From: Sporomusaceae bacterium
GTDB lineage: Bacteria > Bacillota > Negativicutes > UBA1444
Length of the DNA: 64,000 nt
Assembly (NCBI GenBank): GCA_018434355.1
Contig: JAHDPL010000011.1
Location: 1-64,000, forward strand
Direction of reading: 5' to 3'
Every line of letters starts with the position of its first letter. The first letter of the stretch is position 1. The translations under genes and the position numbers were made by a program. This document shows positions 4,723 to 20,588 of the stretch, piece after piece. Under the pieces are notes generated by a model. That model had not been told where the DNA came from. It worked only from the letters and a program-made list of their open reading frames with translations, and made no database searches.

Positions 4723-4725
4723 CCA

Positions 4726-5194: not shown

Positions 5195-5306
5195 TTGTCC
5201 GCAGCCGACAATCCTTCCAAGAGCGGACCCATCACAGACGCCGGGCAATTCGGTCACGATGTAGCGCCAGACGATGAGATTCCATTTTGAGCAAAGGAGG
5301 CGCGAC

Positions 5307-5822
5307 ATGAGCAATCTACAAATCTTCAACAATCAAGAGTTTGGCGAAATCAGAATGATGGTGGTGGATGGCAAGCCATATGCGGTCGGCGTTGACGTGG
5401 CGAGGGCGCTGGAATACGCAAAACCAAGTCAAGCAGTAATTGACCACTGCAAAGGTATCCGTAAGTTGGGGATACCTTCTGCGGGAGGGACGCAAGAAAC
5501 AAACATCATCCCCGAAGGCGACATTCTTCGCCTAATAGTCAAGGCGGCAGACCAGTCGAAAAACTGGGAGATTAAAGAAAAGGCGTGTCGGTTTGAAAGC
5601 CTGATATTTGATGAAATCCTGCCGTCCATCAACAAGCATGGCGGCTATCTCACAGCGGACAAAATCGAAGAGGTTCTAATGAACCCGGATACGATTATCA
5701 AACTCGCGCAGAACCTGAAAGCAGAGCGAGGGTGCTTTTTTTATGCCCAAACTGCATTATTTCCTGGATGCGTTTTCAATTTCATGAGCCGAATATCCCT
5801 TCAAGCGTTGAATATCCTCTGA
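5307..5822 (+). CDS. Truncated BRO-N phage antirepressor
   Basis: ATG 5307 has AAAGGAGG 6 bases upstream. Residues 1-110 of 171 match the BRO N-terminal DNA-binding domain of phage antirepressors ('NNQEFGEIRMMVVDGKPYA', 'VARALEYAKPSQAVIDHC'). Residues 110-140 ('HGGYLTADKIEEVLMNPDTI') are the linker that normally leads into a C-terminal domain of 100 or more residues. The family pattern stops at 'NLKAERG' (about 5728), where a terminator-arm-like sequence appears, and the last 30 residues look unrelated and overlap the convergent gene. It may still bind DNA, possibly as a dominant-negative regulator. Confidence 0.7.
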   Translation: MSNLQIFNNQEFGEIRMMVVDGKPYAVGVDVARALEYAKPSQAVIDHCKGIRKLGIPSAGGTQETNIIPEGDILRLIVKAADQSKNWEIKEKACRFESLIFDEILPSINKHGGYLTADKIEEVLMNPDTIIKLAQNLKAERGCFFYAQTALFPGCVFNFMSRISLQALNIL

Positions 5823-7091
5823 TGAAAACCCGACTTTCAACAGCCAGTGAATAATCTTGGCTCGGTCCAGCAAGGCCCCTTTTGAGCGAATCGGTTCGGT
5901 CCAGCGTTGAACCGTCGATGTCGTGGTTTTTCTCGATGGTGCCATGCGCAGCACTTCGGCCACTATTGCTTCATCGGAGAGCCCGGCACGGAATAAAGCT
6001 CGCGCAATGGTTCGAAATTTGGTTTGATCCAGGCCGTGCGAGGTTGCATTGCACTCCGAACTACAAAACACTTTATCCTCGCGCGAAGGAACAAAGTAGA
6101 CCGGGCAGCTTTTGTTGGCGCATTTACGCAAGAATTTTCCTAAATTCCAATCGAGCAAGAACATGAAATAGATATACCCTATCGGATCAGGCAGCCGGAC
6201 AGAAAGAGCGCCTTTCTCTGGGTAAATATCAAGTCCGCGCAACGCACCGCTGAAAATATTGTCCAAGATTTCCTGCGCTTCATCAGATGCGCTTCGACGC
6301 ATAGCGTTGCCCGAGCGTTTCCCTGGGGCATTAGCGTCAGACGGACAGATCACCGGCGATCGCAGGCGGCCTGACTTTTTATTTAGCAGGCGCTTGTGAC
6401 AATATCGGACGATATCGGAAGACAAGAGGTCGCGGGAGGGCTTGCCGGTCAGGAGCTCAATTGCTGGCTGATGACGTTCAATTTCATCGACTAAGGCATC
6501 AAAGGCATCTGATTGTAGGCTTTCGTTAATGGCATTTTTCAGGCGAATAACCCATCGAAGCAATTCGATTTGCCCGACAAAATCATCGAGATAGAGTCGT
6601 TTCCACTCGTACCCAGATGGCGATTGGCATGGCGGACCGAAATTTTGGCACCAGTTGACCAAGTGGCGGGTTTCATCGGAGTCATCGAGGCGTTTCGGAA
6701 TTTTTAGCGAAACAAAGGCTTCGTGAAATCGACTCGGATTTTCGGTTTTCGGATTAAACAACCATAGGCCGGCTCGGGCGGCGACGTCTGGAGGCATGCT
6801 GGCGTAGTAAAAATCAAATGGATCGTAAGCCTTGAAACGTTCAAAGGTGCCTAATGCCGGGCGGAAATATGGGCGCGGCTCAACACGGATGAGCGATTTT
6901 ATGATTCGCCGACCGGTCAGTAAGTCGAATTTAGCCAATTCTTCAGGCCGGGTTGATGCAAAGGAAGGGGGCAACGCGATGAACGGCTGGCGCTCAGCGT
7001 ACAAACGGAAGTCGTCACCGCCAAAGCAAGGGGTTTCGTCAGAGCCTCGAAATAGGTTTGATTTTATGCCGCCGAAATCCAAAGCAAACAC
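5757..7091 (-). CDS. Zinc-finger (CGNR-like) putative DNA-binding regulator of the element
   Basis: This is the only long leftward gene of the element, placed like a lysogeny-control gene opposite the replication operon. The 444-residue product has a C4 zinc motif (C324, C329, C343, C347 in 'KCANKSCPVYF' and 'VFCSSEC'), similar to the CGNR zinc finger of bacterial transcription regulators. A helical C-terminal 100 residues with 'SDEAIVAEVLRM' and 'TTTSTVQRW' looks like a helix-turn-helix. The first 300 residues are unrecognised. GTG 7091 opens the frame, but TTG 7082 has the better-spaced GAGGTG. I infer a repressor or immunity function; no direct evidence. Confidence 0.5.
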   Translation of the reverse strand: MFALDFGGIKSNLFRGSDETPCFGGDDFRLYAERQPFIALPPSFASTRPEELAKFDLLTGRRIIKSLIRVEPRPYFRPALGTFERFKAYDPFDFYYASMPPDVAARAGLWLFNPKTENPSRFHEAFVSLKIPKRLDDSDETRHLVNWCQNFGPPCQSPSGYEWKRLYLDDFVGQIELLRWVIRLKNAINESLQSDAFDALVDEIERHQPAIELLTGKPSRDLLSSDIVRYCHKRLLNKKSGRLRSPVICPSDANAPGKRSGNAMRRSASDEAQEILDNIFSGALRGLDIYPEKGALSVRLPDPIGYIYFMFLLDWNLGKFLRKCANKSCPVYFVPSREDKVFCSSECNATSHGLDQTKFRTIARALFRAGLSDEAIVAEVLRMAPSRKTTTSTVQRWTEPIRSKGALLDRAKIIHWLLKVGFSSEDIQRLKGYSAHEIENASRK

Positions 7092-7112
7092 CTCAAAAAA
7101 GCTATAGGAAAG

Positions 7113-7148
7113 ATGATAGTTTTATCATAGCTTAATATTGCGTATAAT
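7113..7148 (+). promoter_or_regulatory. Rightward promoter with overlapping operator-like palindrome
   Basis: TATAAT at 7143-7148 lies 17 bp from a poor -35 (TTTTAT, 7120-7125). The perfect inverted repeat ATGATA-GTTT-TATCAT (7113-7128) covers the -35. It separates the leftward zinc-finger gene from the rightward replication operon, as expected for a repressor-controlled early promoter. Confidence 0.55.
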
Positions 7149-7189
7149 TCAAGACAAGGGCATTTAAAAACGACAGGAGGCATTGATTT

Positions 7190-7360
7190 ATGGAACAAGC
7201 GACTTATACGATCCCTGAAACCGCAAAAATATTCAGCGTCACGCCAGCTTTGATTTACAAAATGGCAAAGGATGGGAAAATTCCGACGGTCAACATGAAC
7301 CGCCGCAAAGCGGTGCCGGCTTGGTGGATTCGGCAGAAGCTGGCAGAGCCGAAGCGGTAA
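7190..7360 (+). CDS. Small helix-turn-helix protein (excisionase/MerR-like)
   Basis: The 56-residue product is 'MEQATYTIPETAKIFSVTPA...' with an AGGAGG 9 bases upstream. The pattern 'TIPETAKIFSVTPALIYKMA' followed by 'GKIPTVNMNRRKAVPAWWI' is the HTH_17/excisionase layout: recognition helix then wing. It is first in the rightward operon, next to the palindrome, and its stop overlaps the next start (TAATG). It may act as excisionase or as an early regulator. Confidence 0.7.
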   Translation: MEQATYTIPETAKIFSVTPALIYKMAKDGKIPTVNMNRRKAVPAWWIRQKLAEPKR

Positions 7361-8094
7361 TGGCAAAGGACGCGTTTTATTTTCCGCACGATTCCAATGC
7401 GCGAGATGATCCGAAATGCTCACTATTGATAGAACAGTTGGGCCTTGAGGGATTCGGCATTTTTTGGGTGCTCATTGAAATTTTGCGCGAGCAACCGTCA
7501 TACCGATACCCACTGGCGTTGATTCCAGTAATTGCCCGAAAATACAACACGACATCGGAAAAAATCCGGGTTGTCATAGGTAATTATGGGCTGTTCACAA
7601 TTGACGCGGACGAATTTTTCAGCCTATCGCTGAACCGGCGAATGGAACGGATCGAAAAGTTACGCGAGCTCAACCGGATCAAAGGCAAAAAATCAGGGGA
7701 GCGGCGTCGCAATTTGCCAGCTGTGCGAACCACAGATGAGCCACAGTTTAACCGCGGTTCAACCGGGGATGAACAAATAAAAAGAAATAAAAATAATGAA
7801 ATTAATACATCAGATCCATTTTCGCAAGCGCTCGATGATTTCGCGGAACATCGACGCAAGCTGAAGAAGCCGATGACCGATCGAGCCAAGAAGCTGTTGC
7901 TGGCCGACCTCGACAAGCTGGCGGAAACGGACCGTGAAAAGATTTTGATTATTGAGCAGAGCATTTTGCAAGGCTGGTCAGGGGTTTTTGCCTTAAAGCA
8001 ACACGGAAAAGTGGCTGAGAGCAAGCCTGCAGCAAACAGCGGCGCGATCTTCAGCTACGGAAATTCTAACCGACCGCTTTTCGAGGAGCAGTAG
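7360..8094 (+). CDS. Phage replisome organizer (Lin1244/Lin1753-type N-terminal domain)
   Basis: ATG 7360 overlaps the previous stop. The first 100 of 244 residues ('AFYFPHDSNARDDPKCSLLI', 'LGLEGFGIFWVLIEILREQP', 'KYNTTSEKIRVVIGNYGLF') match the N-terminal winged-helix domain of Firmicute phage replication-initiation proteins, which bind the phage origin and recruit helicase. A low-complexity linker (about 120-155) separates a helical C-terminal part. The origin is expected inside or near this gene, but I see no clear iteron array. It is followed 2 bp later by the helicase gene. Confidence 0.75.
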   Translation: MAKDAFYFPHDSNARDDPKCSLLIEQLGLEGFGIFWVLIEILREQPSYRYPLALIPVIARKYNTTSEKIRVVIGNYGLFTIDADEFFSLSLNRRMERIEKLRELNRIKGKKSGERRRNLPAVRTTDEPQFNRGSTGDEQIKRNKNNEINTSDPFSQALDDFAEHRRKLKKPMTDRAKKLLLADLDKLAETDREKILIIEQSILQGWSGVFALKQHGKVAESKPAANSGAIFSYGNSNRPLFEEQ

Positions 8095-8096
8095 CA

Positions 8097-9401
8097 ATGA
8101 TTCACGATCGGAATTTTGACCTGCAATATAAAATCATCGCAGGCATTTGCCAAAACCCAGATTCGCAGGCCGTCGCGTTTGCGAAACTGAACGCAGAGCA
8201 TTTTCACGCGCCAGGAGCTCGCGAATTCTTTGTTCGACTTCAGGTGATGGCGGAAAGCAGCCAGGAAGTGAGTTTGATCACCGCCGCGCAACGCAAGCCG
8301 GATGATTATGATCTAAACGCACTGACCGCATACATGCCGGTTCGCCCAAAGGAAATGGAGTTTTTGGCCGATCAGCTGATCGACATAGCGGCAGGCCGCA
8401 AGCTGCGAAACATCCTGCAAACCTCGCTGGAGCGTCTGGAAACCGAACCGACGTCGAGCGTTAGCGATGGCATCATAAATCAACTTTTCGTGGACACGGC
8501 TCCCCGTGGAGCCGAACAGATTGTTTCAGGTCGAGAGCAAGCGGTCCGCGCCATTGACACCATAACGGCGCGAATGGACCCGCACAAGCGGGCGGCGAAC
8601 GTTTTATATACAAATTTCGTCGAACTGAACTACTCGACCGGCGGATTTGAAAAAGGCGATTTGATCGGAATTTCTGGCCAGACAGGAACGGGAAAAAGCG
8701 CGTTTTGCCAAAATCTCGCCGCAGACATTGGTGTGCGGCAGCGTCAGCCGTTTTTATACATCAACAGCGAAATGAGCCCCGAGCAGATGGATTTTCGCTG
8801 GGCGGCGATGCTCGCAAACCACCAGGAGATCACATTGCAGCGAATTCGAGCCGGGCAGATCGATTGCGGACCTGACGGAAAGCCGAGTGGGCGACACGAT
8901 GAGTTTGACGCGATTTCGGCAGGACTCGACCGATTGTATAATTCACGGTTCAGCAGCGTGACCGTGCCAGATTTGAAAATCGACAGCGTCGTTAATTTAA
9001 TCCGGCGACACCACCGGGCAGAGCAGATTCGGGCCTGCGCGATCGATTATCTCGGTCGTGCTGATATGGTTAGCGGCAAGCGCGACCTCGCGGAATGGCA
9101 GCTGTTGCTGAGTGCAGCGCGGCGACTGAAGACCATGGCACAGCAACTACAGATCGTTATATTTTTGGTTCTGCAATTGACCAAAAGCGGCGATCTTCAG
9201 CAGTCGAAAGCCATCGAAAACGAGCTGGACCTTCATTTATCGCTCGCGCCGATGGATGAAAACGAGATCCGAGCGGAACTTGCCAGGTTGAGCACTTGCA
9301 ATTACAAGTTAAATATTCTCAAAGGCCGGAACGCACCACGCGGATGGATTCCGCTGCGGTTTGATGGACCCAAACTGCGATTTGAAGGGAGGACGAAATG
9401 A
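8097..9401 (+). CDS. DnaB-like replicative helicase of the element
   Basis: The 434-residue product has the SF4 helicase core: Walker A 'GQTGTGKS' (194-201), 'YINSEMSPEQM' (the DnaB 'S.EMs' element), Walker B 'ACAIDYLGR' and a 'LVLQLTKS' motif near residue 360. A short N-terminal helical region replaces the full DnaB N-terminal domain. It should unwind DNA at the element's replication fork after loading by the neighbouring organizer and loader-like proteins. Slightly shorter than host DnaB (about 440-460). Overlaps the next gene by 4 bases (ATGA). Confidence 0.85.
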   Translation: MIHDRNFDLQYKIIAGICQNPDSQAVAFAKLNAEHFHAPGAREFFVRLQVMAESSQEVSLITAAQRKPDDYDLNALTAYMPVRPKEMEFLADQLIDIAAGRKLRNILQTSLERLETEPTSSVSDGIINQLFVDTAPRGAEQIVSGREQAVRAIDTITARMDPHKRAANVLYTNFVELNYSTGGFEKGDLIGISGQTGTGKSAFCQNLAADIGVRQRQPFLYINSEMSPEQMDFRWAAMLANHQEITLQRIRAGQIDCGPDGKPSGRHDEFDAISAGLDRLYNSRFSSVTVPDLKIDSVVNLIRRHHRAEQIRACAIDYLGRADMVSGKRDLAEWQLLLSAARRLKTMAQQLQIVIFLVLQLTKSGDLQQSKAIENELDLHLSLAPMDENEIRAELARLSTCNYKLNILKGRNAPRGWIPLRFDGPKLRFEGRTK

Positions 9402-9820
9402 AAACAAACTCAATCGACGCGCAAACCAATCGCGAAGCCTTGACAGCAACCGTCGCCGAATGGGCGCTCAGTCGGTGGCCAGACTTGGAAATGGAAGAAT
9501 TGCAAAGCAACTTGCCGCTTTTGCATCAGGTCAAAAAGGCCGATGCGACCTGCAAGAATTGCGCAGATCCAGCCGTTTGCCGGAGTGGTCGGTACCGCTG
9601 GAACGCAGAGCTTCGAGACGGGAGACTCCACGCATTCACGGAAGCCTGCGGTCGGAAACTTGCGCCGGCAGCCGAACAGGCGACCGCGAGGGCAAACCTG
9701 TTGCACATTTCGGATGGTCGCCCAAAATGCCGAATCACGCCAGGCCGGCAACGGATTGAGGAAGCGGTAGCGCCAGCAAGCGTACCATTGACAAGCCGGG
9801 CCTTTTCGAAAACGGTCTGA
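9398..9820 (+). CDS. Standalone DnaI-N-like zinc-binding domain protein (putative helicase loader partner)
   Basis: The 140-residue product has four cysteines (C52, C55, C61, C84 in 'CKNCADPAVC...AC') with the spacing of the N-terminal zinc domain of the Bacillus helicase loader DnaI, which binds DnaB. The AAA+ ATPase domain that follows in DnaI is absent. Translational coupling (ATGA overlap) to the DnaB-like gene supports a helicase-interacting role. The last 45 residues are unrecognised. Family assignment is by pattern only. Confidence 0.55.
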   Translation: MKTNSIDAQTNREALTATVAEWALSRWPDLEMEELQSNLPLLHQVKKADATCKNCADPAVCRSGRYRWNAELRDGRLHAFTEACGRKLAPAAEQATARANLLHISDGRPKCRITPGRQRIEEAVAPASVPLTSRAFSKTV

Positions 9821-10011
9821 TGGACCGACGGATTGTGGTCCGCATGCCGACAGGCCGCCTCGTGCTTACAGCCGCGGAGCTTCAGCGCCTTTTTAGCAAA
9901 AGCCCAGAAATCCTGCAAATTGGGTTATTGCGAGCGAAGCACGAAGCGAAAAGACCGAAAAATCAAGGGCGCAAGCAATTTAGGGAGGACGCAAGCGATG
10001 CCGACTACTAA
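9820..10011 (+). CDS. Small basic protein of unknown function
   Basis: The ATG overlaps the preceding stop (TGATG), indicating coupling. The 63-residue product begins 'MDRRIVVRMPTGRLVLTAAE' and ends in a lysine/arginine-rich tail. It overlaps the next gene by 14 bases in another frame. No family recognised. Confidence 0.5.
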   Translation: MDRRIVVRMPTGRLVLTAAELQRLFSKSPEILQIGLLRAKHEAKRPKNQGRKQFREDASDADY

Positions 10012-10249
10012 AAAAGCCCTGGTGCCCAAGCAAGGCGATGCACCGACGCCACACGACCGGCTTTTTGCGCAGGTGCCAGGCGCGAAAAATCTCTACGACG
10101 CATTGCTAAAATTCGTGGCACAAGCCCGGCTCCGGCGCGAAGGCACCGGCGAAATTCGATCAGTCGTTCAAAGTATGACGGAGTTGGCGGTCGCGGAGAT
10201 CGATCAACAAATTGACCAACCAGAATCAGTCGAAAAAAATGGAGGGTGA
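9998..10249 (+). CDS. Small protein of unknown function
   Basis: ATG 9998 has GGGAGG 9 bases upstream. The 83-residue product has a basic N-terminus and two likely helices ('LYDALLKFVAQARLR', 'VVQSMTELAVAEIDQQI'). It is packed between neighbours in the replication/structural operon. No family recognised. Confidence 0.5.
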   Translation: MPTTKKALVPKQGDAPTPHDRLFAQVPGAKNLYDALLKFVAQARLRREGTGEIRSVVQSMTELAVAEIDQQIDQPESVEKNGG

Positions 10250-10253
10250 ACAC

Positions 10254-11045
10254 ATGCCAAACTTTGCAGAAAAATTCCTGGCGCGACGCCGCACAATCCT
10301 TCAAAATTCCGAACTATCCGATCTCGGGCGATTGAACGCCATCAAAGCGGCATTTGCCGAAGCGGAAAGCGAGTACAACCAGCTTTCAAAAGCGAATCGC
10401 GAGCGGAGCGAGGCTTTAAAGAAAGCCGCCGAAGCGCTCGATCCTGGCAAGGCACCCAAACGGGAATTGCCGAAATTTCCAATGCCTGACGAACAATATT
10501 CGTTGACCGATTTTGAGCGAAAGGCTGCACCAGCGTTGGCTTCCGTTGCGGCGATGATGGCCGAGCGACGCGCAGCCGACCGCATGATAACAGCGGCAGC
10601 CGTTCTGCAAGGCTCGGCGCTTCAAGCAAAATTGGAGGAACTCGCGACCCTTGAACGTTTCGGTGAATCCGCGCTCTTGCTGGCGCTGCCGCAAATCATT
10701 GCGCAGCAACAGGCCCGATACGAGAGTGAACGAACGGCGATTCTACAGACGCCTGGCCAGGACGAGCAAACATTAGCTTCACGTCTCGGCGAAATCGCAG
10801 ATCGGTACATTAGCGACCGGATAGCGCTGGACACATGGGTAAATCGCCAAGTTGAGGCGATCGCGAAGCGCGAAACGACCAAGGCGCAGCAAGATTTCAT
10901 CGACAAGCAGCGCCAGGCGGAAGCGGAAATGATGAAGGAAATGGGCGGCATTGCGCTCGAATCGATGATTATCGAAGGCAATTGGCGCGACATTCAGGGC
11001 CTTGTTAGCCTGGAGCCCGGCCTTGATCGCGAGGGCGACCAATGA
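10254..11045 (+). CDS. Helical coiled-coil protein of unknown function, upstream of the tape measure gene
   Basis: ATG 10254 is preferred (GGAGGG 7-8 bases upstream) over ATG 10212. The 263-residue product is almost entirely alpha-helical, alanine- and glutamate-rich, with heptad-like stretches ('AAFAEAESEYNQLSKANRE', 'DKQRQAEAEMMKEMG'). No enzyme motif. Its position two genes before a tape measure protein suggests a virion-assembly or scaffold-like role, but a tail chaperone identity is not shown. Overlaps the next start by 4 bases. Confidence 0.5.
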   Translation: MPNFAEKFLARRRTILQNSELSDLGRLNAIKAAFAEAESEYNQLSKANRERSEALKKAAEALDPGKAPKRELPKFPMPDEQYSLTDFERKAAPALASVAAMMAERRAADRMITAAAVLQGSALQAKLEELATLERFGESALLLALPQIIAQQQARYESERTAILQTPGQDEQTLASRLGEIADRYISDRIALDTWVNRQVEAIAKRETTKAQQDFIDKQRQAEAEMMKEMGGIALESMIIEGNWRDIQGLVSLEPGLDREGDQ

Positions 11046-11440
11046 CCGGCGAAAAGAATTGGCTCGATAGCGTAACCACATTCACCACCGATCGCGGCGT
11101 CGTTTTCGATGCGATCGAAGTTTGCAAATCGCTGAAGCTAAGCACCGAGCGGCTCAAGCAGATTGACCCGCAGCAGATCGTCCATCTGCCAGTGCCGGCC
11201 ACCGGATGGCGGAAGCGCCTGACGGCAAAAGTGGTGATCACGGCGGTCACGCAAGGCGGATTGTTCGAATTATTGCTTCAAAGCAGCGGCCCGGTCGGCA
11301 CCAGCTACCGGCGCTGGCTCGCAAATGATGTAATACCATCGATTTTTTCCAACGGCGGCTGGATGCAGCCGGCACTTGTGGCTGAAATTTTGCAGCGGCC
11401 AGCGATCATCGACGAACTGGCCGCGAAACTGGGGAGGTAG
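11042..11440 (+). CDS. Divergent BRO-N-like domain protein
   Basis: The 132-residue product ends with 'GGLFELLLQSSGPVGTSYRR' and 'WLANDVIPSIFSNGGWM', which match the end of the BRO-N domain (the sGLyrLi.rS....a..F..Wv..eVlPsIr..G.y pattern). It is therefore a second, more divergent BRO-type protein besides the truncated one at 5307. Here it lies between the coiled-coil and tape measure genes, an unusual place for an antirepressor. ATGA overlap with the upstream gene. Confidence 0.6.
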   Translation: MTGEKNWLDSVTTFTTDRGVVFDAIEVCKSLKLSTERLKQIDPQQIVHLPVPATGWRKRLTAKVVITAVTQGGLFELLLQSSGPVGTSYRRWLANDVIPSIFSNGGWMQPALVAEILQRPAIIDELAAKLGR

Positions 11441-11442
11441 CC

Positions 11443-14130
11443 ATGCTCGGAGACAAACTCGTCAAAATTCTGATGACTGCAGATCCCGGAAACACAGGGC
11501 AGGTGCTGGATCAGGTCATGCAAAAAGCCAAGCGGGTGGACGAAAGCCTGCGTGAACTTGGAAGTCGGACCCCGGCAAGCCCGCAGGGAGCCGCAACGCT
11601 TCCTGCTGCGGCAGCTCCACTTCCAAATTCGGTGCCGGCTTCCTACCAAAAAACGACCGGCAGCATTAAGCAATTGGCAGCCGCTTTCGTGGTTGCCCAA
11701 GGCGCGATCATGGCGGTCGAAACCGCTCTGAGATCAGTATCGGGCGCATTTGGCGGTTTTATCAACGTCAACAACCAGATGGAGCAGCTTCGCCTTCAAT
11801 TCGAAGTCATGCTGGGCAGCAAAGCAAAAATGGAAGAGTTGTTCACGATCACCAAGAAATTCGCGGACACGACGCCGTTTAATGACCTGGATTCATACCG
11901 GGCCGGCCAGCAATTGCTCGCAGCTGGCGTGAAGGATGCCAGAGAATACGAGCGATCGCTGCGAAGCGTTGGCGATCTTGCCGCAGCCAGCGGTCGGAGC
12001 ATTGGCGAGGTTGCCAGTGCATATGCCCGATTGAAAAGCGGCGCAACCGGCGAAGCGATGGAAGCGCTGCGACTTATGAATATTTCAAGAGCCATGTTTG
12101 AAGCCCAGGGAATCAGGTTTGACGCAGGCGGCCAGGCACTTGCAACTGCACGACAAATGACCGATGCGCTCGACTCGATCATTTCAAACAATTACGGCGG
12201 CATGACAGAAAAGCTTTCCAAGACATGGGCCGGCCTTTGGTCAACGTTTACCAGCGGCGCTGAAAACTCAGTCCGAACGCTGACCGGCGGCACATTTGAA
12301 TTATTGAAATCGGCGTTGGCGTCAGTTAATGACGCAATGGACGCAGCGCTGAAAGACCCGGACCAGAAGCTCAAACGGCTGGGTGACTCTATTACCGTGG
12401 CCGCAAAAGCTGTCGGTGAATTGGGCGGTCAATTTACCACGCTGGCTGGCAGCGGGGCATCAACAGCGTTTCAGGCACTCGGACAAGCGCTGGCCGCCGT
12501 TGGCTTTGGCCTTTCGACAATTGTTTATTTGACGCGCATGGCCCAGGCTGCCATGCAGCTGCTTTGGGATACTGTGTCGATGAGCGGAAACGCCAGGCAG
12601 AACTTCATGAATAGCATGAACGATGCGAACAGCGCCTATTCGAAGCAAATCGCCCTGGTTCGCTCGGCTCTCGGGATGCAGGCCGATGCAGCCCAGTCCA
12701 GCGCAGACGCTCAAACAAACGCGACAAACAAGATCGCCAAGGCGCAACAGGAAGCCGCGATCAAAGCAGCAGAATCCCGTAATTCGGTCGTTGCCGGACT
12801 GAAAACCATCATGGCAGTCCAGGAATCGGCCTGGGCCGTTGAAAAAGCCAAGGGACGAGACACTACTCAACTGGCGCAAATGGAAATGGAACAACGCAAG
12901 CTGAACCTTTCGACATTGCAGGAGGCCGAAGGACGGCAACAAGCCGCGATCGAAGCCCAGGGAAAAGCCTATCAAAAGTCGAGCGAACTACTCGCAGCAG
13001 AGGCCGAATACGCAAAGGCTCTGGCGGCGTATTACGACGCATTGATCGAGAAAAAAGAAAAGATGGGCGGGTTTGTAACCCAGACCAGCAAACTGATTGC
13101 CGAAGCCGACGCGATCGAGGCAAAGGGCGGCGACGCAGGAGTGAAGCGGTACGAAGCGCTGAAGTCGGCGGTCACGGAATACCTGGACGGACTGGAGAAA
13201 ATGAAAAACGCCCAGATCCAGGCACAGGCAAACGCAGCCAAGATGGAAAGCGCGGTAAGTGCAGCGCAAAGCGGCAATCTGGCGCAATATCAGAACGTGA
13301 CTGCAGCCATTGAACAGAACGAGCGAATCTTCCAGATCAGTGCGCTACAAGAACGACTGAATCAAATCCGCCAATTGAGTGAAGCCCAGAACCTCGGAGC
13401 ACGTGAGAGGTTCACGCTTTACGAACAGGAGCGCCAAATATTCAGCCAAATGACCGGCGGAATTAGCGCGGCGATTACCGAGACCATGCAGCAGATCGAA
13501 TCATTGCAGAACAAAGCGATGGGCGCAGCATCGAGCGCGATCGGAATCCTTGAAAAGACCGGAGCTGAAAAAAGCGCTTATGAGGAAGTTGCAAGCATGA
13601 TCCGAGGCTTAAATCTCGACATGAGCAAGATGAGCCTGCAAACGCTCGGCCAGATGGCGAGCCTTTCCGACCAGCTGAAAAACAAAGGCGTTAGCGCAAA
13701 AGATTTGATGCCAAATTCCGGCCAGGTGCTTGAAGCGCTTCGCAAAGAGCTAACCGGAATCCCTGACATGATCGGAAAACTGCAGGGCGGACTTCAAACA
13801 TTGATCGGGCTATCTGCGCAGATAGGAGCGCAAGCGGCGAACAATTTCTGGGGCCCATGGGAAGAAAAACTCAGCGGGCTAAAAGAGCAAATTGCATCGC
13901 TCGCAATGACCAATCTCGCTCCGGCAGGAAGCATCTTGCCAGCGGTTGAACTTCCGCGAACCAACACACAGGCCCAAACACAAACCGTCAACGTGGCTAC
14001 AAATACCCAACTGACAGTTCAGGGAAGCACGCTGCGCGAAGTTGATGAGATTGTGGCTAAGGCCAGGGATCGTTTCAGCGACGAACTATACGCAGCGCTT
14101 CAGGAAGCAAACGCCAGATTTGCGCTGTAG
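11443..14130 (+). CDS. Phage tail tape measure protein
   Basis: The 895-residue product shows the conserved tape-measure N-terminal domain: 'QLRLQFEVMLGSKAKMEELF', 'KKFADTTPFNDLDSYRAGQQ', 'SVGDLAAASGRSIGEVASAY' and 'YGGMTEKLSKTWAGLWSTF' (about residues 112-275). A hydrophobic stretch (about 300-375) and long Ala/Gln/Glu-rich helices follow, ending in 'VATNTQLTVQGSTLREVDEI'. Tape measure proteins set tail length and line the tail tube. No tail tube, chaperone, baseplate or sheath gene is in the element, so it would have to assemble with helper-phage proteins. The frame is intact and starts 2 bp after the preceding stop with GGGGAGG, so decay is not apparent. Confidence 0.85.
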   Translation: MLGDKLVKILMTADPGNTGQVLDQVMQKAKRVDESLRELGSRTPASPQGAATLPAAAAPLPNSVPASYQKTTGSIKQLAAAFVVAQGAIMAVETALRSVSGAFGGFINVNNQMEQLRLQFEVMLGSKAKMEELFTITKKFADTTPFNDLDSYRAGQQLLAAGVKDAREYERSLRSVGDLAAASGRSIGEVASAYARLKSGATGEAMEALRLMNISRAMFEAQGIRFDAGGQALATARQMTDALDSIISNNYGGMTEKLSKTWAGLWSTFTSGAENSVRTLTGGTFELLKSALASVNDAMDAALKDPDQKLKRLGDSITVAAKAVGELGGQFTTLAGSGASTAFQALGQALAAVGFGLSTIVYLTRMAQAAMQLLWDTVSMSGNARQNFMNSMNDANSAYSKQIALVRSALGMQADAAQSSADAQTNATNKIAKAQQEAAIKAAESRNSVVAGLKTIMAVQESAWAVEKAKGRDTTQLAQMEMEQRKLNLSTLQEAEGRQQAAIEAQGKAYQKSSELLAAEAEYAKALAAYYDALIEKKEKMGGFVTQTSKLIAEADAIEAKGGDAGVKRYEALKSAVTEYLDGLEKMKNAQIQAQANAAKMESAVSAAQSGNLAQYQNVTAAIEQNERIFQISALQERLNQIRQLSEAQNLGARERFTLYEQERQIFSQMTGGISAAITETMQQIESLQNKAMGAASSAIGILEKTGAEKSAYEEVASMIRGLNLDMSKMSLQTLGQMASLSDQLKNKGVSAKDLMPNSGQVLEALRKELTGIPDMIGKLQGGLQTLIGLSAQIGAQAANNFWGPWEEKLSGLKEQIASLAMTNLAPAGSILPAVELPRTNTQAQTQTVNVATNTQLTVQGSTLREVDEIVAKARDRFSDELYAALQEANARFAL

Positions 14131-14141
14131 GAAAAATCAAG

Positions 14142-14170
14142 CCGGGTGCATGAACAAATCGTGCACCCGG
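14142..14170 (+). terminator. Hairpin between tape measure and terminase genes
   Basis: The 9-bp stem CCGGGTGCA/TGCACCCGG has an 11-nt loop. There is no T-run, so it is more likely an attenuator or mRNA-stability element than a simple terminator. Confidence 0.5.
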
Positions 14171-14187
14171 AGCAGGGGAGTGAGAAT

Positions 14188-14739
14188 ATGCCACCGACAA
14201 AATTTAGACCGGATCGCCATCCAATGATCATTCAGGCGCTCGCTTCGGTGGGCAAAAACCGCGACGAAATTGCTGCTTTGATGGAGATTTCCCGCGACAC
14301 CTTGTATTCATGGCAAAAACGCTGGCCGGAGGTCAAGGCGGCGCTTGAACACGGCGCGGTCGAAGCCAACGCAGAGATCGTTGCAAGCCTTTTCAAGCGG
14401 GCGACCGGGTACGAATTCGAAGAAACCCGAACAGCGATCATCAAACGCCCGGATGGCACCCAGGAAACGAGGGTGGAAAAAGTCAGGAAATTCGTCGCAC
14501 CAGACACGACTGCGCTGATTTTTTGGTTAAAAAACCGCCTGCCGGATCAATTCAAAGACGTGAACGACCTGCGGCACTCGGGCGCGGTGAAAGTCGAGCA
14601 TGAAGTTGACGCGGAAATTAAAGAACTGCTCAAAAACAACCCGGAAGCAAAAGCTGCGGTACGTGCGGCGTTTGAAACGCTGTACCCTGGGCCGTACGCG
14701 ATCAAGGGAGGCGCGAACGATGCCAGAAAAGCCATCTAA
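14188..14739 (+). CDS. Phage terminase small subunit (TerS-like)
   Basis: ATG 14188 has AGGGGAG 7 bases upstream. The 183-residue product has an N-terminal helix-turn-helix ('KNRDEIAALMEISRDTLYSW'), the central 'EIVASLFKRATGYEFEE' helix and the 'APDTTALIFWLKNRLPDQFK' segment typical of small terminase subunits. TerS recognises the packaging site and presents DNA to the large terminase. No large subunit is present. Phage satellites often carry only a TerS to redirect helper packaging to their own DNA, and I infer that role here. Overlaps the next gene by 20 bases. Confidence 0.8.
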   Translation: MPPTKFRPDRHPMIIQALASVGKNRDEIAALMEISRDTLYSWQKRWPEVKAALEHGAVEANAEIVASLFKRATGYEFEETRTAIIKRPDGTQETRVEKVRKFVAPDTTALIFWLKNRLPDQFKDVNDLRHSGAVKVEHEVDAEIKELLKNNPEAKAAVRAAFETLYPGPYAIKGGANDARKAI

Positions 14740-14935
14740 ATGGGCGCACTTAGGGCAGGCCATGAATCCGTTTGAAGTCGCCGCCTATTTGAAGCAGGCA
14801 ATTTCGGCTTATGCCGGGACCGAGCATGGCGGCGTGAAAACCGTGAGTGATCTGCCTGGCCCGGCCATTAGCGTCGAGATGGGCGAAGGAAGCGCGTTTG
14901 AGATTCACATCACCAGAGGAGGGCGCTGGTTATGA
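14720..14935 (+). CDS. Small protein of unknown function
   Basis: ATG 14720 has GGGAGG 8-9 bases upstream and overlaps the terminase gene. The 71-residue product ends in short strands ('AISVEMGEGSAFEIHITRGG'). ATGA overlap with the next gene marks one operon. No family recognised. Confidence 0.5.
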   Translation: MPEKPSKWAHLGQAMNPFEVAAYLKQAISAYAGTEHGGVKTVSDLPGPAISVEMGEGSAFEIHITRGGRWL

Positions 14936-15165
14936 CAAAAACCAACAACATGACCTGCCCGGAATTTGAACAACTGCTAATCAGCGCGGCGGGTGGATTC
15001 ACCGATCCGGCTATCGGCATCGCCATTGGCGCAAAGCCCTTGAAAGAAGCCGGTGCATACCCCGAGGGCAACGGGATCGCGCTTTTTATGGATGATGGCG
15101 AGACTTTCCTTGTTAGCATTCACCGGATCAACCAGCGGCCAAACTTCATCGATTCGGCCCGCTGA
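14932..15165 (+). CDS. Small protein of unknown function
   Basis: The 77-residue product, 'MTKTNNMTCPEFEQLLISAA...', is followed by a beta-rich half ('NGIALFMDDGETFLVSIHRI'). It is the last gene of the rightward structural operon, ending where a leftward gene converges. No family recognised. Confidence 0.5.
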   Translation: MTKTNNMTCPEFEQLLISAAGGFTDPAIGIAIGAKPLKEAGAYPEGNGIALFMDDGETFLVSIHRINQRPNFIDSAR

Positions 15166-15240
15166 TTGATTGGGATTTCAAACGGATTTAGGCCAGGATG
15201 CGGTGAAACCGCCCCGCATGGTGCGATGATAGCCGGGAAT

Positions 15241-15267
15241 AAAAAATAAAGGCTGCACAAGGCAGCC
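15241..15267 (-). terminator. Terminator of the leftward ribbon-helix-helix gene
   Basis: On the minus strand GGCTGCC-TTGT-GCAGCC is followed by TTTATTTTTT. It sits just past the stop codon at 15279. Confidence 0.75.
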
Positions 15268-15278
15268 AAGGGCAAAAG

Positions 15279-15476
15279 CTATTCAGATTTTTCATCGGTG
15301 GGCAGGACAATTGGGCCGTTTTCCTTTTCGTAGGCCGCGATGATCCGCTCGACGTTATACACAAGCTCGTTGTTCATGGAGCGGCGGTTTCTTTCGGCAA
15401 CGACTTTCAGCTTTGCCAAGAGCGACGCTTCGATGCGGACCGAGTAGGCCACAACCGGATCGCCTTTTATAGCCAC
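15279..15476 (-). CDS. Arc-like ribbon-helix-helix DNA-binding protein
   Basis: The 65-residue product shows the Arc/MetJ layout: an N-terminal strand ('AYSVRIEASLLAKL') followed by two helices ('RRSMNNELVYNVERIIAAYE'). Such dimers bind short operators and repress transcription. It is the second leftward gene of the element and reads away from the promoter at 15587, so it may control that promoter or the small-gene cassette. A 15-residue tail is disordered. Another RHH-like protein is encoded at 16907. Confidence 0.75.
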   Translation of the reverse strand: MAIKGDPVVAYSVRIEASLLAKLKVVAERNRRSMNNELVYNVERIIAAYEKENGPIVLPTDEKSE

Positions 15477-15524
15477 AACACATTCACCTCGCGTTCAATT
15501 TGCACGCCCAGTTTATCACAAAAC

Positions 15525-15555
15525 GCCTGCCTCGGCCACAGAAAACGAAGCAGGC
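15525..15555. terminator. Possible bidirectional hairpin
   Basis: GCCTGC (15525-15530) pairs with GCAGGC (15550-15555) across a 19-nt loop, followed by a T-rich stretch on the plus strand. Weak because of loop size. Confidence 0.3.
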
Positions 15556-15586
15556 AATTCTTTTGCATATTTATTTTGGCTACATA

Positions 15587-15615
15587 TTGACTACAAAACG
15601 GGTATGTTATATGAT
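15587..15615 (+). promoter_or_regulatory. Sigma-70-type promoter of the small-gene cassette
   Basis: TTGACT (15587-15592), a 17-bp spacer and TATGAT (15610-15615). It starts the rightward run of tiny genes from 15672 to the integrase. Confidence 0.65.
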
Positions 15616-15671
15616 GTGACTAACAAAAGCGAAGGGGCTGAAAAGCCTTGAAAACAAAGGGGCGCGAGAGA

Positions 15672-15854
15672 ATGAGCAAGATGTCGACCAGAGAAGCGAA
15701 AGCCAGATTGGCCGAGATTATTGCAGGACAGCAACCGGATGCACTGGCGGCCATTGAGGACGTAGCAGATCGCAAGATTGAGGAAATGACCGTTGGCGAG
15801 CTGATCGACTTCATCATCGAATCGGCGGAACCCCTGAACCCCTTCTGGCGCTAA
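15672..15854 (+). CDS. Small acidic helical protein of unknown function
   Basis: ATG 15672 has AAGGGG 10 bases upstream. The 60-residue product is acidic and helical ('STREAKARLAEIIAG', 'RKIEEMTVGELIDFIIE'). First gene after the promoter at 15587. Its size and acidity recall small phage takeover proteins, but nothing specific is recognised. Confidence 0.5.
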   Translation: MSKMSTREAKARLAEIIAGQQPDALAAIEDVADRKIEEMTVGELIDFIIESAEPLNPFWR

Positions 15855-15911
15855 AGCACCGAAAGAACCAAAGCCGAGCCGGCGGCCAATCCGGCGAAGG
15901 AGGCGTTGACA

Positions 15912-16277
15912 ATGACAAAGGCCGAATTTGAAAAACTGGCCGGAACGAAAATTTCTCAGGAACAGTTCGATCAGATCGAAACCGTATACATGTGGCACCC
16001 GGCAATTTCCGGCATTGACGATAAAACGCAGATCGTCCAACTCTGGCGGCTTGGTGTGATTCCCGACTTGCTAAATAAAGCCTACATCATGCACAACCGT
16101 CAACCGGAGCAAGAGGAAAACGCCGTGCGCAACTATGCGGTGACGTATTTAAACCTTGATACCGGCATTGTTGGAGTTGCCACTTTTACTGACCCAGATA
16201 CGCGAGAGGCACTAAGGTCTTTTAGGGCGTGCTACCGACACGCAGCCTATCAAATTATCAGCGTGGCTGAATATTAA
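15912..16277 (+). CDS. Unknown protein of the small-gene cassette
   Basis: ATG 15912 has AAGGAGG 9 bases upstream. In the 121-residue product a helical first half ('KAEFEKLAGTKISQEQFDQI') precedes a beta-rich second half ('NYAVTYLNLDTGIVGVATF'). No family recognised. Confidence 0.5.
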   Translation: MTKAEFEKLAGTKISQEQFDQIETVYMWHPAISGIDDKTQIVQLWRLGVIPDLLNKAYIMHNRQPEQEENAVRNYAVTYLNLDTGIVGVATFTDPDTREALRSFRACYRHAAYQIISVAEY

Positions 16278-16315
16278 GCGGAAACCTGGTTGTACCCAGG
16301 GGGAAGGAGACCATC

Positions 16316-16519
16316 ATGAAATTCATTGCGACGCTTAACGGCAAGAAAATCAAAACGTTTCCGGCGGTCCGCGAGCTTGGCTCCGGCAGCCTTTGCAGGC
16401 GGTTCGATGAATTTTGCAAAGGCCACGGATTCGGCACCAAGATCGATACGGCAAAATCCTTCGGTTTCATTGGCTGGGCGAATGCCGCAGGCGACATGGT
16501 GATTCTGGAGCGAGTGTGA
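16316..16519 (+). CDS. Small protein of unknown function
   Basis: ATG 16316 lies just after GGGGGAAGGAG. The 67-residue basic product, 'MKFIATLNGKKIKTFPAVRE...', has an aromatic/glycine-rich C-terminal half. No family recognised. Confidence 0.5.
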   Translation: MKFIATLNGKKIKTFPAVRELGSGSLCRRFDEFCKGHGFGTKIDTAKSFGFIGWANAAGDMVILERV

Positions 16520-16539
16520 AAAGCAAGGAGGGAAAAGCG

Positions 16540-16719
16540 ATGTTCAGCAAAGGCACATTGATCCAGTCGGTCAGAACCGGCAGCACTTACCAAATCGCCG
16601 GAAAATGGAGCGGAAACCTGGTACTCGCTCCGATCAGCGAATCTGACGCCGATTGCCTTTTGTACCAGGCAGGCGAACTTCAGGAATTGATCGATGCCGG
16701 GGATTTCATCAAAAAATGA
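16540..16719 (+). CDS. Small beta-rich protein of unknown function
   Basis: ATG 16540 with AAGGAGGG 6-7 bases upstream. The 59-residue product reads as short strands ('TLIQSVRTGSTYQIAGKW', 'LVLAPISESDADCLLY') then a helix ('AGELQELIDAGDFI'). No family recognised. Confidence 0.45.
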   Translation: MFSKGTLIQSVRTGSTYQIAGKWSGNLVLAPISESDADCLLYQAGELQELIDAGDFIKK

Positions 16720-16733
16720 AAGGGGGGATTGCC

Positions 16734-16901
16734 ATGATCGCAGTAGCCAGCGCGGGACCACTGGCACATAAACAGATGCCGACGCTTTGGTGCATCTTTG
16801 AGAAGCGGATCTGTGAATTCGCCAAGAACCAGCAGCCGGTATTTGAATGCACCTGCAGGCGCGACGAAGAAATGCCGTGCCGCACAAGTGAAAGGGGGTG
16901 A
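16734..16901 (+). CDS. Small cysteine-containing protein of unknown function
   Basis: ATG 16734 has AAGGGGGG upstream. The 55-residue product has four cysteines in 'LWCIFEKRICEF', 'FECTCRRDEEMPC', possibly a small zinc site. Its stop codon overlaps the ribosome binding region of the next gene. Confidence 0.45.
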   Translation: MIAVASAGPLAHKQMPTLWCIFEKRICEFAKNQQPVFECTCRRDEEMPCRTSERG

Positions 16902-16906
16902 AATGG

Positions 16907-17107
16907 ATGGAAGAAACGAAAGCGGCACCCAAATTGCGACGCAAGCACGTCACGGTTCGGATGCCGGAAGCCACATGGAAAAAACTTCAGGCGATGGCAA
17001 ACACCCAGGGGCTGACACTGAATGCGCTTTTGCTCGGCAGAATCAACGAATTGATCAGCGAAGATGCTGGCAAGGAAACCGCCAAAGGGGCGATTAAATT
17101 TGTTTGA
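16907..17107 (+). CDS. Ribbon-helix-helix-like DNA-binding protein
   Basis: ATG 16907 with AAGGGGGTG 6 bases upstream (GTG 16898 is an alternative). The 66-residue product has a strand ('RKHVTVRMPEATWKKLQAMA') and a helix ('GLTLNALLLGRINELISED') in the Arc-like order. It may regulate the cassette or the integrase. Overlaps the next gene by 8 bases. Confidence 0.6.
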   Translation: MEETKAAPKLRRKHVTVRMPEATWKKLQAMANTQGLTLNALLLGRINELISEDAGKETAKGAIKFV

Positions 17108-17255
17108 CGGGTACGATATTGTGATTGAGCGCAAGACTGGCAAGATTCTCAAATCGACACCACTGGACCCGGAGCGCTGCGCAAAGTTCTTGGCACCATT
17201 TGTGATGAAGGCGGCAACCAAGCCGGAACCAGCGGACCCAGAGAAAAACAAGTGA
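17100..17255 (+). CDS. Small protein of unknown function with TTG start
   Basis: TTG 17100 has AAAGGGG 9 bases upstream. The 51-residue product is 'MFDGYDIVIERKTGKILKST...' with a proline/charge-rich tail. Support is the ribosome site and close packing only. Confidence 0.4.
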   Translation: MFDGYDIVIERKTGKILKSTPLDPERCAKFLAPFVMKAATKPEPADPEKNK

Positions 17256-17374
17256 CCGGCATCTGTTAGCGCAGACACCGGTCATAGCGGGCCAAGGAAG
17301 GACAGCCATAGCCACCGCTTGATTTATTTTAGCACAAGCGGTGGAGAATTTCAAAAACGAAGGAGGCCACTGCA

Positions 17375-17623
17375 ATGTTTGAACACGACAAACTGACACC
17401 AGCCGACGAAAGAGTGACGCAGCTGCTTGATGAACTACTGGCAAACGCCGATGAAGGAACCAGAGCCAAATTGATGGCGCTGGATGAAGCGATGGTAGAA
17501 GCCGAGCGCGATCGGGCGATCCGAATGTATAACGCAGGCGTGGAGGTTGGGGTTAATTCCGCATACAGGAAGATTCGCGCAAAACAATCCGATCATCAGC
17601 GATTCGCCAGAATGTGCATGTGA
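17375..17623 (+). CDS. Small acidic helical protein
   Basis: The 82-residue product has AAGGAGG upstream. It is helical and acidic at first ('DERVTQLLDELLANADEGT', 'LMALDEAMVEAERDRAIRMY') with a basic end ('YRKIRAKQSDHQRFARM'). Last of the tiny genes before the integrase. No family recognised. Confidence 0.5.
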   Translation: MFEHDKLTPADERVTQLLDELLANADEGTRAKLMALDEAMVEAERDRAIRMYNAGVEVGVNSAYRKIRAKQSDHQRFARMCM

Positions 17624-17743
17624 CAATATGGAGACCGCTGGCCAGCCAGGAAAACCTGCAACCTTCGCGGCTGGTCGGCGGCCAATCGCACCAAACAATG
17701 GCGGAAAACCGCTGGTCATATTTTGAAACAGGAGGATCGGACC

Positions 17744-19093
17744 ATGGCAGCAGGCATGACTATAAGCATTTTCAAGGACAATCGGCACGGCGGATACATT
17801 GCCGAGCTTATTTATTTAGACGAACGCACTGGCGAAAAGAAGTCGGTGCGCCGGCATGGCAAAGGCCGCAAGGAAGCAGCGGGCAAAATAGACCTGATCC
17901 GACAGCAGATCGATGAAAGCGGATTCTTGCCGGACAAGGCCAAGATTACCCTGGGCGGTTGGCTGAACCGCTGGTTGGAAACATACCAGAAGAACATCAT
18001 CAAAATTCGGACCTACCAGCAACAGCAGATGTATGTCGACAAATACATCATCCCGGCGCTCGGCTCAAAACCGCTGACGCAGCTAAAAGGTGCCGACATT
18101 CAGCAGTTTTTTAACACAATGCTTGCCAGCGGCAGGCTTGCTGCGCAGAAGCGGATCAAACGCATGGAAGCGGAGCAGAAACAAGCAGCTGCGAAGAAGA
18201 CGCGCCGCAAATTTGGCGAAAAGGAAAAACCAAAACCGAAACCGGCGCTACCGGAAGGAATGACACCCGGTCTTTCCACCCACACGATCCGAATTTTTTA
18301 TTCATTGCTGAACAAGGCGCTCAAACAGGCGAAGAAGGATGGACTGATCCGAGTTAACCCGATCGAAGCGACAACCAAACCAAAGGTGAAGTCGCGCCCA
18401 ATTAAGCTACTGTCGGAGGCGGAAGCGAACCGGTTTCTGGACGCAGCGGCAAAGCACCGGCTGTATGCCGCCTTTCTGCTTTCCTTTGGCACCGGAATGC
18501 GGCGTGGTGAAATCCTGGCGCTAAAATGGAAAAATATCAATCTCAAAACCGGCAGTATTTCCATCAAAGAATCCCTGAACTGGCTGGACGGAACAGGCAT
18601 CGTCTTTGATACGCCGAAGACCGAGGCGTCAATTCGCACGGTCGAGATACCGAAGGATATCCTGGATGAGCTAAAGGCACACAGATCCCGGCAGGCCCAG
18701 GAGAAGCTGGATGCACGCGCCAAGGCGAAAAAACACGCGGAAAAATTCGGCTGCAAGGTTGATTTTGCAGCGTATTACCAGGATACGGGGATGGTATTTT
18801 GTACGCCGGAAGGAAGGCCGATTGATCCGCATAATTGGGCGCGGCTTAAGAAAAAGATTGCCGAAGAAGCGAAGGTGCCCGATTTTCGAATTCACGACAT
18901 GCGCCATTTCTTCTGCACACAGCTGATAAAGCGCGGTGTAAACGTCAAGGCAGTCCAGGGCATGCTCGGGCATTCCACGGCGGCCATGACGCTGAACGTT
19001 TACAGTCACGTTGACCAAGAGATGCTCAAAGATGCGGCGGCCACGATGGTAGGCGTGCTGACTAAGCGCAAGAAGGCTGCCGGGGAAAAATAA
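17744..19093 (+). CDS. int: Tyrosine-family site-specific integrase
   Basis: ATG 17744 has AGGAGG 8 bases upstream. The 449-residue product has an N-terminal arm-binding domain, a SAM-like core-binding domain and a catalytic domain with R253 or R254 ('GTGMRRGEILALKW'), K292 ('TPKTEASIR'), H384-R387 ('HDMRHFF'), H410 ('GHSTAAM') and nucleophile Y420 ('NVYSHV'). It should catalyse recombination between the 45-bp tRNA-Lys cores. A Lys/Glu/Gln/Pro-rich insertion of about 50 residues (about 125-177) separates the core-binding helices. Unusually for a tRNA-site integrase, it is 3 kb from the attachment core, with cargo genes in between. Confidence 0.92.
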   Translation: MAAGMTISIFKDNRHGGYIAELIYLDERTGEKKSVRRHGKGRKEAAGKIDLIRQQIDESGFLPDKAKITLGGWLNRWLETYQKNIIKIRTYQQQQMYVDKYIIPALGSKPLTQLKGADIQQFFNTMLASGRLAAQKRIKRMEAEQKQAAAKKTRRKFGEKEKPKPKPALPEGMTPGLSTHTIRIFYSLLNKALKQAKKDGLIRVNPIEATTKPKVKSRPIKLLSEAEANRFLDAAAKHRLYAAFLLSFGTGMRRGEILALKWKNINLKTGSISIKESLNWLDGTGIVFDTPKTEASIRTVEIPKDILDELKAHRSRQAQEKLDARAKAKKHAEKFGCKVDFAAYYQDTGMVFCTPEGRPIDPHNWARLKKKIAEEAKVPDFRIHDMRHFFCTQLIKRGVNVKAVQGMLGHSTAAMTLNVYSHVDQEMLKDAAATMVGVLTKRKKAAGEK

Positions 19094-19122
19094 TTCTACA
19101 GAGTGATTACATTGCCAGAACA

Positions 19123-19166
19123 GGGGCGCTATAATGATCATGACCGATCAGAAGCGTCCCCGTTTT
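19123..19166 (+). terminator. Terminator after the integrase gene
   Basis: GGGGCGCT (19123-19130) pairs with AGCGTCCCC (19153-19161) with one bulge, followed by GTTTTATT. It separates the integrase from the cargo genes. Confidence 0.55.
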
Positions 19167-19279
19167 ATTAATGCACCCTTGGCTTTTGCAGGTGAAATGA
19201 AGGCAGGTACCGAATATTTAACCGGATAATCGGACCACCCGACTAACTTTGCAGACGAGGAAGAGGGGCATTGCATTTC

Positions 19280-19918
19280 ATGGAATGGCAGGATCGTATC
19301 CCGGAAGACATCAGAGACCTGTATGAAATTCACAACTACCATCACGCGGCAGAGGTGCTCGCAACAAGCTACCAGCAGGAGTTTGATGAGATCATGAATG
19401 CGCTGCGAAACTTCAGGATTAGCGAAGCGGATTTGATGGCTGGCGGCGGCAACGAATCGACCATCCCCAAAAAATTCTCCGAGATGCTACGTCCGCTTAG
19501 CTGGTATGAAACCAAAATACAGGGCGATTTATTGATCCGAAAAATCGTGTCCGGTAATGGCGCGGGACAAACCATCGCCGAAGAGCTAAAGATCGAGAAG
19601 TTCCTCGACGGACACAAGGTGGACTACGTGAAAAACCAGGTCGCGTTTGACCTGGAGTGGAACAGCAAGGACCAGACTTTTGATCGCGATCTTTATGCAT
19701 TTCGGGCTTTTCACGAATGCCGGCTTATTGGCGCAGCGGTATTGGTAACCAGATCAGAGGCCATGAATACAGCATTTAAACGGTTTGGCATTATGAAAAA
19801 ATACGGAGCGAGCACCACCTGGATGGGTAAGCTACTCTACAGATTGAACGCTGGACGCAATGGCGGGTGTCCGGTGCTGGTTTTTGGCATTACGCCGAAG
19901 GTGATAAACGGAGGATGA
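19280..19918 (+). CDS. BglII/BstYI-family type II restriction endonuclease
   Basis: The 212-residue product is close in length to BglII and BstYI endonucleases. The family core is visible: 'VDYVKNQVAFDLEWNSKDQT' followed by 'FDRDLYAFRAFHECRLIGAA' and 'ITRS'-like 'VLVTRSEAMN', then 'STTWMGKLLYRLNAGRNGGC' near the C-terminus. By family it should cut at a GATC-centred site (AGATCT or RGATCY), but specificity cannot be read here. ATG 19280 lies 11-12 bases after GAGGGG. The methyltransferase gene follows after 4 bp. Confidence 0.75.
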   Translation: MEWQDRIPEDIRDLYEIHNYHHAAEVLATSYQQEFDEIMNALRNFRISEADLMAGGGNESTIPKKFSEMLRPLSWYETKIQGDLLIRKIVSGNGAGQTIAEELKIEKFLDGHKVDYVKNQVAFDLEWNSKDQTFDRDLYAFRAFHECRLIGAAVLVTRSEAMNTAFKRFGIMKKYGASTTWMGKLLYRLNAGRNGGCPVLVFGITPKVINGG

Positions 19919-19922
19919 AGCA

Positions 19923-20588
19923 ATGAGCCCCATTGAGCAATTCAGGCAGATGGCGGAAACGCAGAAATTCAAGACGGTACTCGCGGACCCGCCGTGGCAA
20001 TTTCAAAATAGAACCGGCAAGATGGCACCAGAGCACAAGCGGCTAAAACGCTACGAGACCATGAAGCTGGATGAAATCTGCAGCCTACCGGTTGCCGACA
20101 TGTTGGACACAACGGCGCACCTTTACCTCTGGGTACCGAACGCGCTGATGCCGGAAGGGATCGAAGTCCTTAAAGCCTGGGGATTCGCATACAAGACAAA
20201 TCTGATATGGTACAAAGTGAGAAAAGACGGCGGACCAGACGGCAGGGGCGTCGGTTTCTATTTCCGAAACGTAACGGAGATGATCCTGTTCGGAGTTAAA
20301 GGAGCAAACGCCCGAACGCTTCAGCCAGGGCGCAGCCAGGTGAATATCATTCGATCAATGAAGCAGGAGCATTCTCGCAAGCCGGATGAGTTATACGAGC
20401 TCATAGAGCGATGCAGCCCAGGACCATACCTCGAAATGTTTGCTCGCGGTGTTCGACCAGGCTGGACCTCATGGGGCGATCAAGCGAACGAAGACTACAA
20501 GCCGACATGGTCGACATACCAAAACAACTCAGGGCGGGAGACGTTCGACAAAGAGAAGGCCATGGCCCTGTTTGAACGGCGAGCGTAG
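19923..20588 (+). CDS. MT-A70-family DNA adenine N6-methyltransferase
   Basis: The 221-residue product has the catalytic 'LADPPWQF' motif (DPPW), the MT-A70 signature 'HLYLWVPNALMPEGIEVLKA', 'KTNLIWYKV' and the SAM-pocket end 'YLEMFARGVRPGW'. It should methylate adenine in the site cut by the upstream enzyme, giving a complete type II restriction-modification pair. The two genes are 4 bp apart, so co-expressed. It could alternatively be an orphan phage methylase, but the BglII-like partner favours the pair. Confidence 0.8.
   Translation: MSPIEQFRQMAETQKFKTVLADPPWQFQNRTGKMAPEHKRLKRYETMKLDEICSLPVADMLDTTAHLYLWVPNALMPEGIEVLKAWGFAYKTNLIWYKVRKDGGPDGRGVGFYFRNVTEMILFGVKGANARTLQPGRSQVNIIRSMKQEHSRKPDELYELIERCSPGPYLEMFARGVRPGWTSWGDQANEDYKPTWSTYQNNSGRETFDKEKAMALFERRA

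Follow-up and report, generated by a model that had tools for sequence, protein, structure and literature searches.

Chimeric tails in phage satellites first became known in 2026 with a report on the PLEs of Vibrio cholerae, and it was proposed that these tails are made with a tape measure protein (TMP) of the satellite (PMC12987554). Deletion of the tmp gene cuts transduction by 96–99% in PLE1 and PLE4 (PMC12987554). Putative tmp genes are also present in PLE-like elements and in cf-PICIs (Extended Data Fig. 10 of PMC12987554). In the open-access literature we found no further report of TMPs in satellites of such kind. To our knowledge, no TMP has been reported from the classical PICIs. A statement in PMC12987554 is to the same effect.

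We analyzed a stretch of 64,000 nucleotides from the genome of a Sporomusaceae bacterium (the window). It contains a 17.5-kb integrative element, here called element B, with an isolated gene for a TMP of 895 aa. As in PLE1, PLE4 and PLE11, a TMP is encoded without the rest of a tail operon, together with an integrase and replication functions. The PLEs, however, carry a tail assembly chaperone, whereas in the window element neither a chaperone nor a baseplate hub was recognised. The window element furthermore comes from another phylum, differs in gene content and has a small terminase, a DnaB helicase and restriction-modification cargo. With the cf-PICIs it shares the integrative, satellite-like organisation and a predicted TMP, yet cf-PICIs have their own capsid genes and in the window element capsid, portal and protease are unmatched. 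Integrase, replication module, small terminase and an island size of 13–18 kb are as in the PICIs and SaPIs of Gram-positive bacteria, from which the window element differs by its TMP and by having no recognised capsid-remodelling gene. Since neither a chaperone nor capsid genes were recognised, we file neither this element nor its two counterparts in G043 and G311 (see below) as PLE or cf-PICI.

The integrative element

Element B spans positions 4680–22165 of the window and is bounded by perfect 45-bp direct repeats at 4635–4679 (+), which is probably also the right end of a tandem element A, and at 22121–22165 (+). The repeats match the 3′ end of tRNA-Lys(TTT) exactly. Contigs C30 and C35 each have an intact copy of this tRNA; both repeats in the window lack its 5′ half. 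Just inside both ends lies a 26-bp repeat with 96% identity (4726–4751 and 21994–22019), which is a candidate arm site for the integrase. An empty integration site was sought in the only congener genome, which is incomplete and has no match to the flank of the element.

At the left end we find an antirepressor-like Bro-N gene (5274–5822, +; phrog_130 6.5e-38, Pfam Bro-N 2.8e-9), whose C-terminal part is apparently lost as judged from the span of the profile match. The replication module consists of an initiator with a Lin1244-like N-terminus (7321–8094, +; Pfam 2e-12, phrog_2562 1.5e-20) and a DnaB-like helicase (8097–9401, +; phrog_19 4.6e-53, Pfam DnaB_C 6e-26). An Arc-like regulator is encoded on the minus strand (15279–15476; Pfam Arc 1.8e-5) and a tyrosine integrase at 17723–19093 (+; phrog_1 4.5e-73). 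Between the integrase and the right repeat (attR) sit a BglII-type restriction endonuclease (19280–19918, +; Pfam PF09195 8.6e-49) and its presumed partner, an MT-A70 methyltransferase (19923–20588, +; Pfam 3.4e-35, PADLOC type II MTase 2e-91). Just inside attR, a gene for an FRG-domain protein (21232–21954, +; PADLOC and Pfam) is the PADLOC defence candidate PDC-S15. Small ORFs are also present. The gene at 5757–7091 (−), which lies on the opposite strand between the shortened Bro-N gene and the replication module, encodes 444 aa; this protein lacks a Pfam match and has a cysteine-rich motif resembling a zinc finger.

The element thus has what is general to phage satellites, namely an integrase with att sites and a packaging function, here the small terminase. 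Among the scanned ORFs, none matched a capsid, portal, large terminase, tube or baseplate gene, as an autonomous virion would require. In view of the tRNA borders, the replication module, the small terminase, the integrase, the defence cargo and the absent structural operon, the region 4680–22165 is very probably a phage-satellite-like integrative element, and the satellite context assumed in the preliminary description is well supported.

The tape measure protein

The 895-codon ORF at 11443–14130 (+) is intact, and its ATG is preceded by GGGGAGGTAGCC, a good ribosome site. At its own base composition, a stop-free stretch of this length is expected by chance with p of about 4e-17, and its codon-position GC resembles that of the adjoining genes. 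With PHROG profiles the protein matches the TMP families phrog_9959 (E = 1e-9) and phrog_4928 (2.5e-13), which is weak but consistent; Pfam and NCBIfam gave no match. In BLAST searches, residues ~72–361 align with annotated phage TMPs at 27–30% identity, and 33 proteins of tail-operon type match the same N-terminal part. A profile that includes 19 phage TMPs retrieves solved TMPs in the PDB. The N-terminal domain was predicted at residues ~105–285 with a pLDDT of 54–91; its top viral fold matches are phage TMPs, the full-length TM-scores are low, and no significant fold match to the TMP model turned up in the PDB. Detectable similarity is limited to residues ~17–400 and the remainder is modelled as long helices. 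The C-terminal two thirds have no relatives in the phage collection, and no close relative beyond the N-terminal domain was found in IMG/VR, the GTDB genome contigs or the phage and plasmid collections. With homology to phage TMPs and a long helical body, the 895-aa protein is a tape measure protein. The TMP N-terminal domain had been described as clear; the domain is present, but the adjective is slightly too strong, as sensitive profiles are required to detect it.

The TMP gene belongs to a same-strand run from 7321 to 15165, which comprises the replication and helicase genes, the TMP and the small terminase, mostly abutting or overlapping. Upstream of the TMP are an all-helical protein (10254–11045, +), with homologs in the G311 and G314 elements, and a protein with a Bro-N/antirepressor N-domain (11042–11440, +; Pfam 4.7e-5, below the cut-off; PHROG antirepressor 2.5e-9). 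Downstream follows the small terminase subunit (14146–14739, +; alternative start 14188; phrog_309 9.4e-37). These are the neighbours that the preliminary description had named; the helicity of the first is a structure prediction of low confidence, and Bro-N and phrog_309 are profile matches. We also agree that the usual upstream tail partners do not accompany the TMP. No other ORF scanned in 4680–22165 has a tail, head, portal or large-terminase match, and near the TMP no tube, sheath, chaperone, baseplate, portal, capsid or large terminase was found. The ORFs adjoining the TMP have no recognisable match to a tail assembly chaperone, although a very divergent one may have escaped detection.

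The helical protein was considered as a chaperone or dedicated partner of the TMP; we reject this because the G314 element has a homolog and no TMP. Its only relatives found are those in G311 and G314, a fold search gave no significant match, and the helical protein of the G043 element has no recognisable relation to it.

Sister elements and tape measure length

An isolated TMP is present in two more integrative elements of the same class, probably the Negativicutes. The G043 element (13.2 kb) is bounded by 55-bp att repeats of tRNA-Gly(CCC) and encodes an integrase, a TMP of 694 aa, a helical protein, a small terminase and a replication protein. The G311 element (~15.3 kb) has a primase, the homolog of the window helical protein, a TMP of 1193 aa with one downstream ORF, and an integrase; its 24-bp repeats, located outside a tRNA, are weaker border evidence than the 55-bp and 45-bp ones. 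Common to the G311 element and a further element at tRNA-Gly in G314 are a small ORF, the first gene and the helical protein (52% identity); the latter element has no TMP. In this satellite family the TMP is thus an optional module. The G314 element (L158, contig C112, 7692–25022) is a 17-kb island with a primase-helicase and several cargo genes.

Most relatives of the TMP domain that we found sit in complete tail operons, and the matches in G005, G013, G040, G113, G163, G293, G317, G323 and G376 were set aside as they lie inside tail or structural operons. The TMPs of the G315 prophage and of the IMG/VR phage L118 are of the same family and length as those of the G311 and G043 elements; in both phages, however, the TMP gene is part of a complete structural operon, downstream of the tube and chaperone genes, unlike in the elements.

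At 694 aa, the G043 TMP falls one residue short of its relative (695 aa, 71% identity) in a phage of 54.6 kb whose tail operon is complete. Its dN/dS (NG86) is 0.13 and 0.19 against two phages and 0.17 between these phages, so purifying selection acts on the G043 copy, which is no nearer to one of the phages than the two are among themselves. The TMP of G311 has 1193 aa and its counterpart in G315, a congener with a complete prophage, 1190 aa. In their alignment 137 and 140 gap positions cancel out, and identity is roughly 16–57% per 100-column block, the last, short block being higher. This pair uncouples length from sequence change and could serve as a natural experiment on which properties of a TMP are kept by selection. 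Among the phage TMPs collected here, 1 of 171 pairs is within 3 aa of each other. The lengths in the sister elements therefore point to retention of the helper's tail length, although the sample is small and proteins as similar as the G043 pair would in part be expected to agree in length anyway. The preliminary description had proposed tails of distinct length. Where this can be tested it is not supported, since the G043 and G311 TMPs equal a related phage TMP within 1–3 residues; a distinct length is disfavoured by the sister elements, if still possible for the window element.

In the G311 element the TMP is directly followed by a secreted-type ORF (L102, 14963–15478), and so it is in the G315 prophage (L142, 15370–15861; 31% identity). 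This ORF was apparently captured along with the TMP.

Candidate helpers

Two resident prophages are candidate helpers, one on contig C17 with a contractile tail and a TMP of 615 aa and one on contig C39 with a long tail and a TMP of 706 aa. Neither TMP can be considered the source of the window TMP, as both are unrelated to it by BLASTP. We did not find a helper TMP for the window element with which the length of 895 aa could be compared. At 0.15 nm per residue, a TMP of this size would predict a tail of about 130 nm. The C17 gene adjoining the terminase genes of that prophage is 38% identical to the small terminase of element B (E = 2e-20), a likeness within the small-terminase family which is a possible packaging link. 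The C17 prophage (G000; L148, L149) has two small-terminase-like genes side by side, of the phrog_309 and phrog_51 types, the first of which resembles that of the element.

Possible role of the tape measure protein

We suggest, with a probability of roughly 60%, that the satellite builds chimeric tails on the tube of a helper with its own TMP; helper dependence, chimeric assembly and benefit are what we infer. Upon helper induction or infection, element B would replicate itself with its initiator and DnaB helicase, and its own small terminase would steer packaging. The TMP would be expressed from the same gene run as the replication and terminase genes. It could then replace the helper TMP in tails that consist of the tube, the sheath or terminator, and the baseplate proteins of the helper. 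Such chimeric tails would have about the length of the helper's tails and would continue to work if the helper's own TMP were targeted, in short supply or unsuitable. An action of the TMP on tails is plausible and has experimental precedent in the PLEs.

A different origin of the gene set would be a full phage that has lost its head and tail genes, with the TMP and the small terminase left by chance. The genes indeed resemble those of phages, the antirepressor gene at 5274 seems to have lost its C-terminal part and, as mentioned, most relatives of the TMP domain belong to complete tail operons. Nevertheless, we consider such a degraded prophage unlikely: the att repeats are perfect, the TMP is intact and the genes from replication to packaging form a compact run on the same strand. 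Moreover, isolated TMPs recur in two bounded elements from different families of the class, and the G043 TMP is under purifying selection without being closer to either phage than the phages are to each other. Likewise, a TMP orphaned by recent deletion, which the preliminary description had considered, does not agree with an intact ORF and with isolation that recurs in separately bounded elements.

It would be rather improbable that the TMP is a decoy which poisons the tail assembly of the helper, protects the host and lowers helper yield while being absent from the particles of the element; the preliminary description had suggested a block of helper tails as an alternative role. PLE TMPs work as replacements (PMC12987554), and the total length of the G311 TMP equals that of the phage TMP despite compensating indels, which is needless for a mere decoy. 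On the other hand, tail assembly is a known target of satellites (PLE11 Rta, Tai systems; PMC12987554, PMC11364771) and element B carries other defence genes. Very unlikely, finally, is a switch in length by which the particles of the element would receive tails of another length than those of the helper. While 895 aa differ from the 615 and 706 aa of the resident prophage TMPs, neither of these is related to the window TMP, and both sister elements keep the phage TMP length.

As the window element and two islands of the same class each carry a TMP and no other tail parts, ruler-swapping may be a repeated strategy. Rather tentatively, we propose that capsid-less satellites outside Vibrio have repeatedly and convergently captured a TMP as a module, each TMP being matched in length to that of the satellite's own helper and swapped into helper tails without a dedicated chaperone. 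In case of such convergence, the TMP would be a selectable hijacking part like the small terminase. Isolated TMPs in an unrelated class, two of them length-matched to the TMP of a related phage, suggest tail hijacking as a general satellite tactic.

A probable upstream element

On contig C30 the intact tRNA-Lys is followed by an integrase, the beginning of a replication gene and, where the contig ends, what seems to be the first part of a transposase gene. At the left end of the window lies the remainder of a rolling-circle-type replication protein. Given this gene order after the tRNA and the rest of the Rep opening the window, a second element (A) most likely sits in tandem upstream of element B at the same tRNA-Lys, C30 and the window presumably being joined. 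Element A would span window positions 1–4679 and G000:C30:50632–53760, with a GC content of ~38%. It encodes an integrase of 395 aa and an 886-aa protein without family match, and an insertion sequence seems to interrupt its rolling-circle-type Rep where the contig breaks off.
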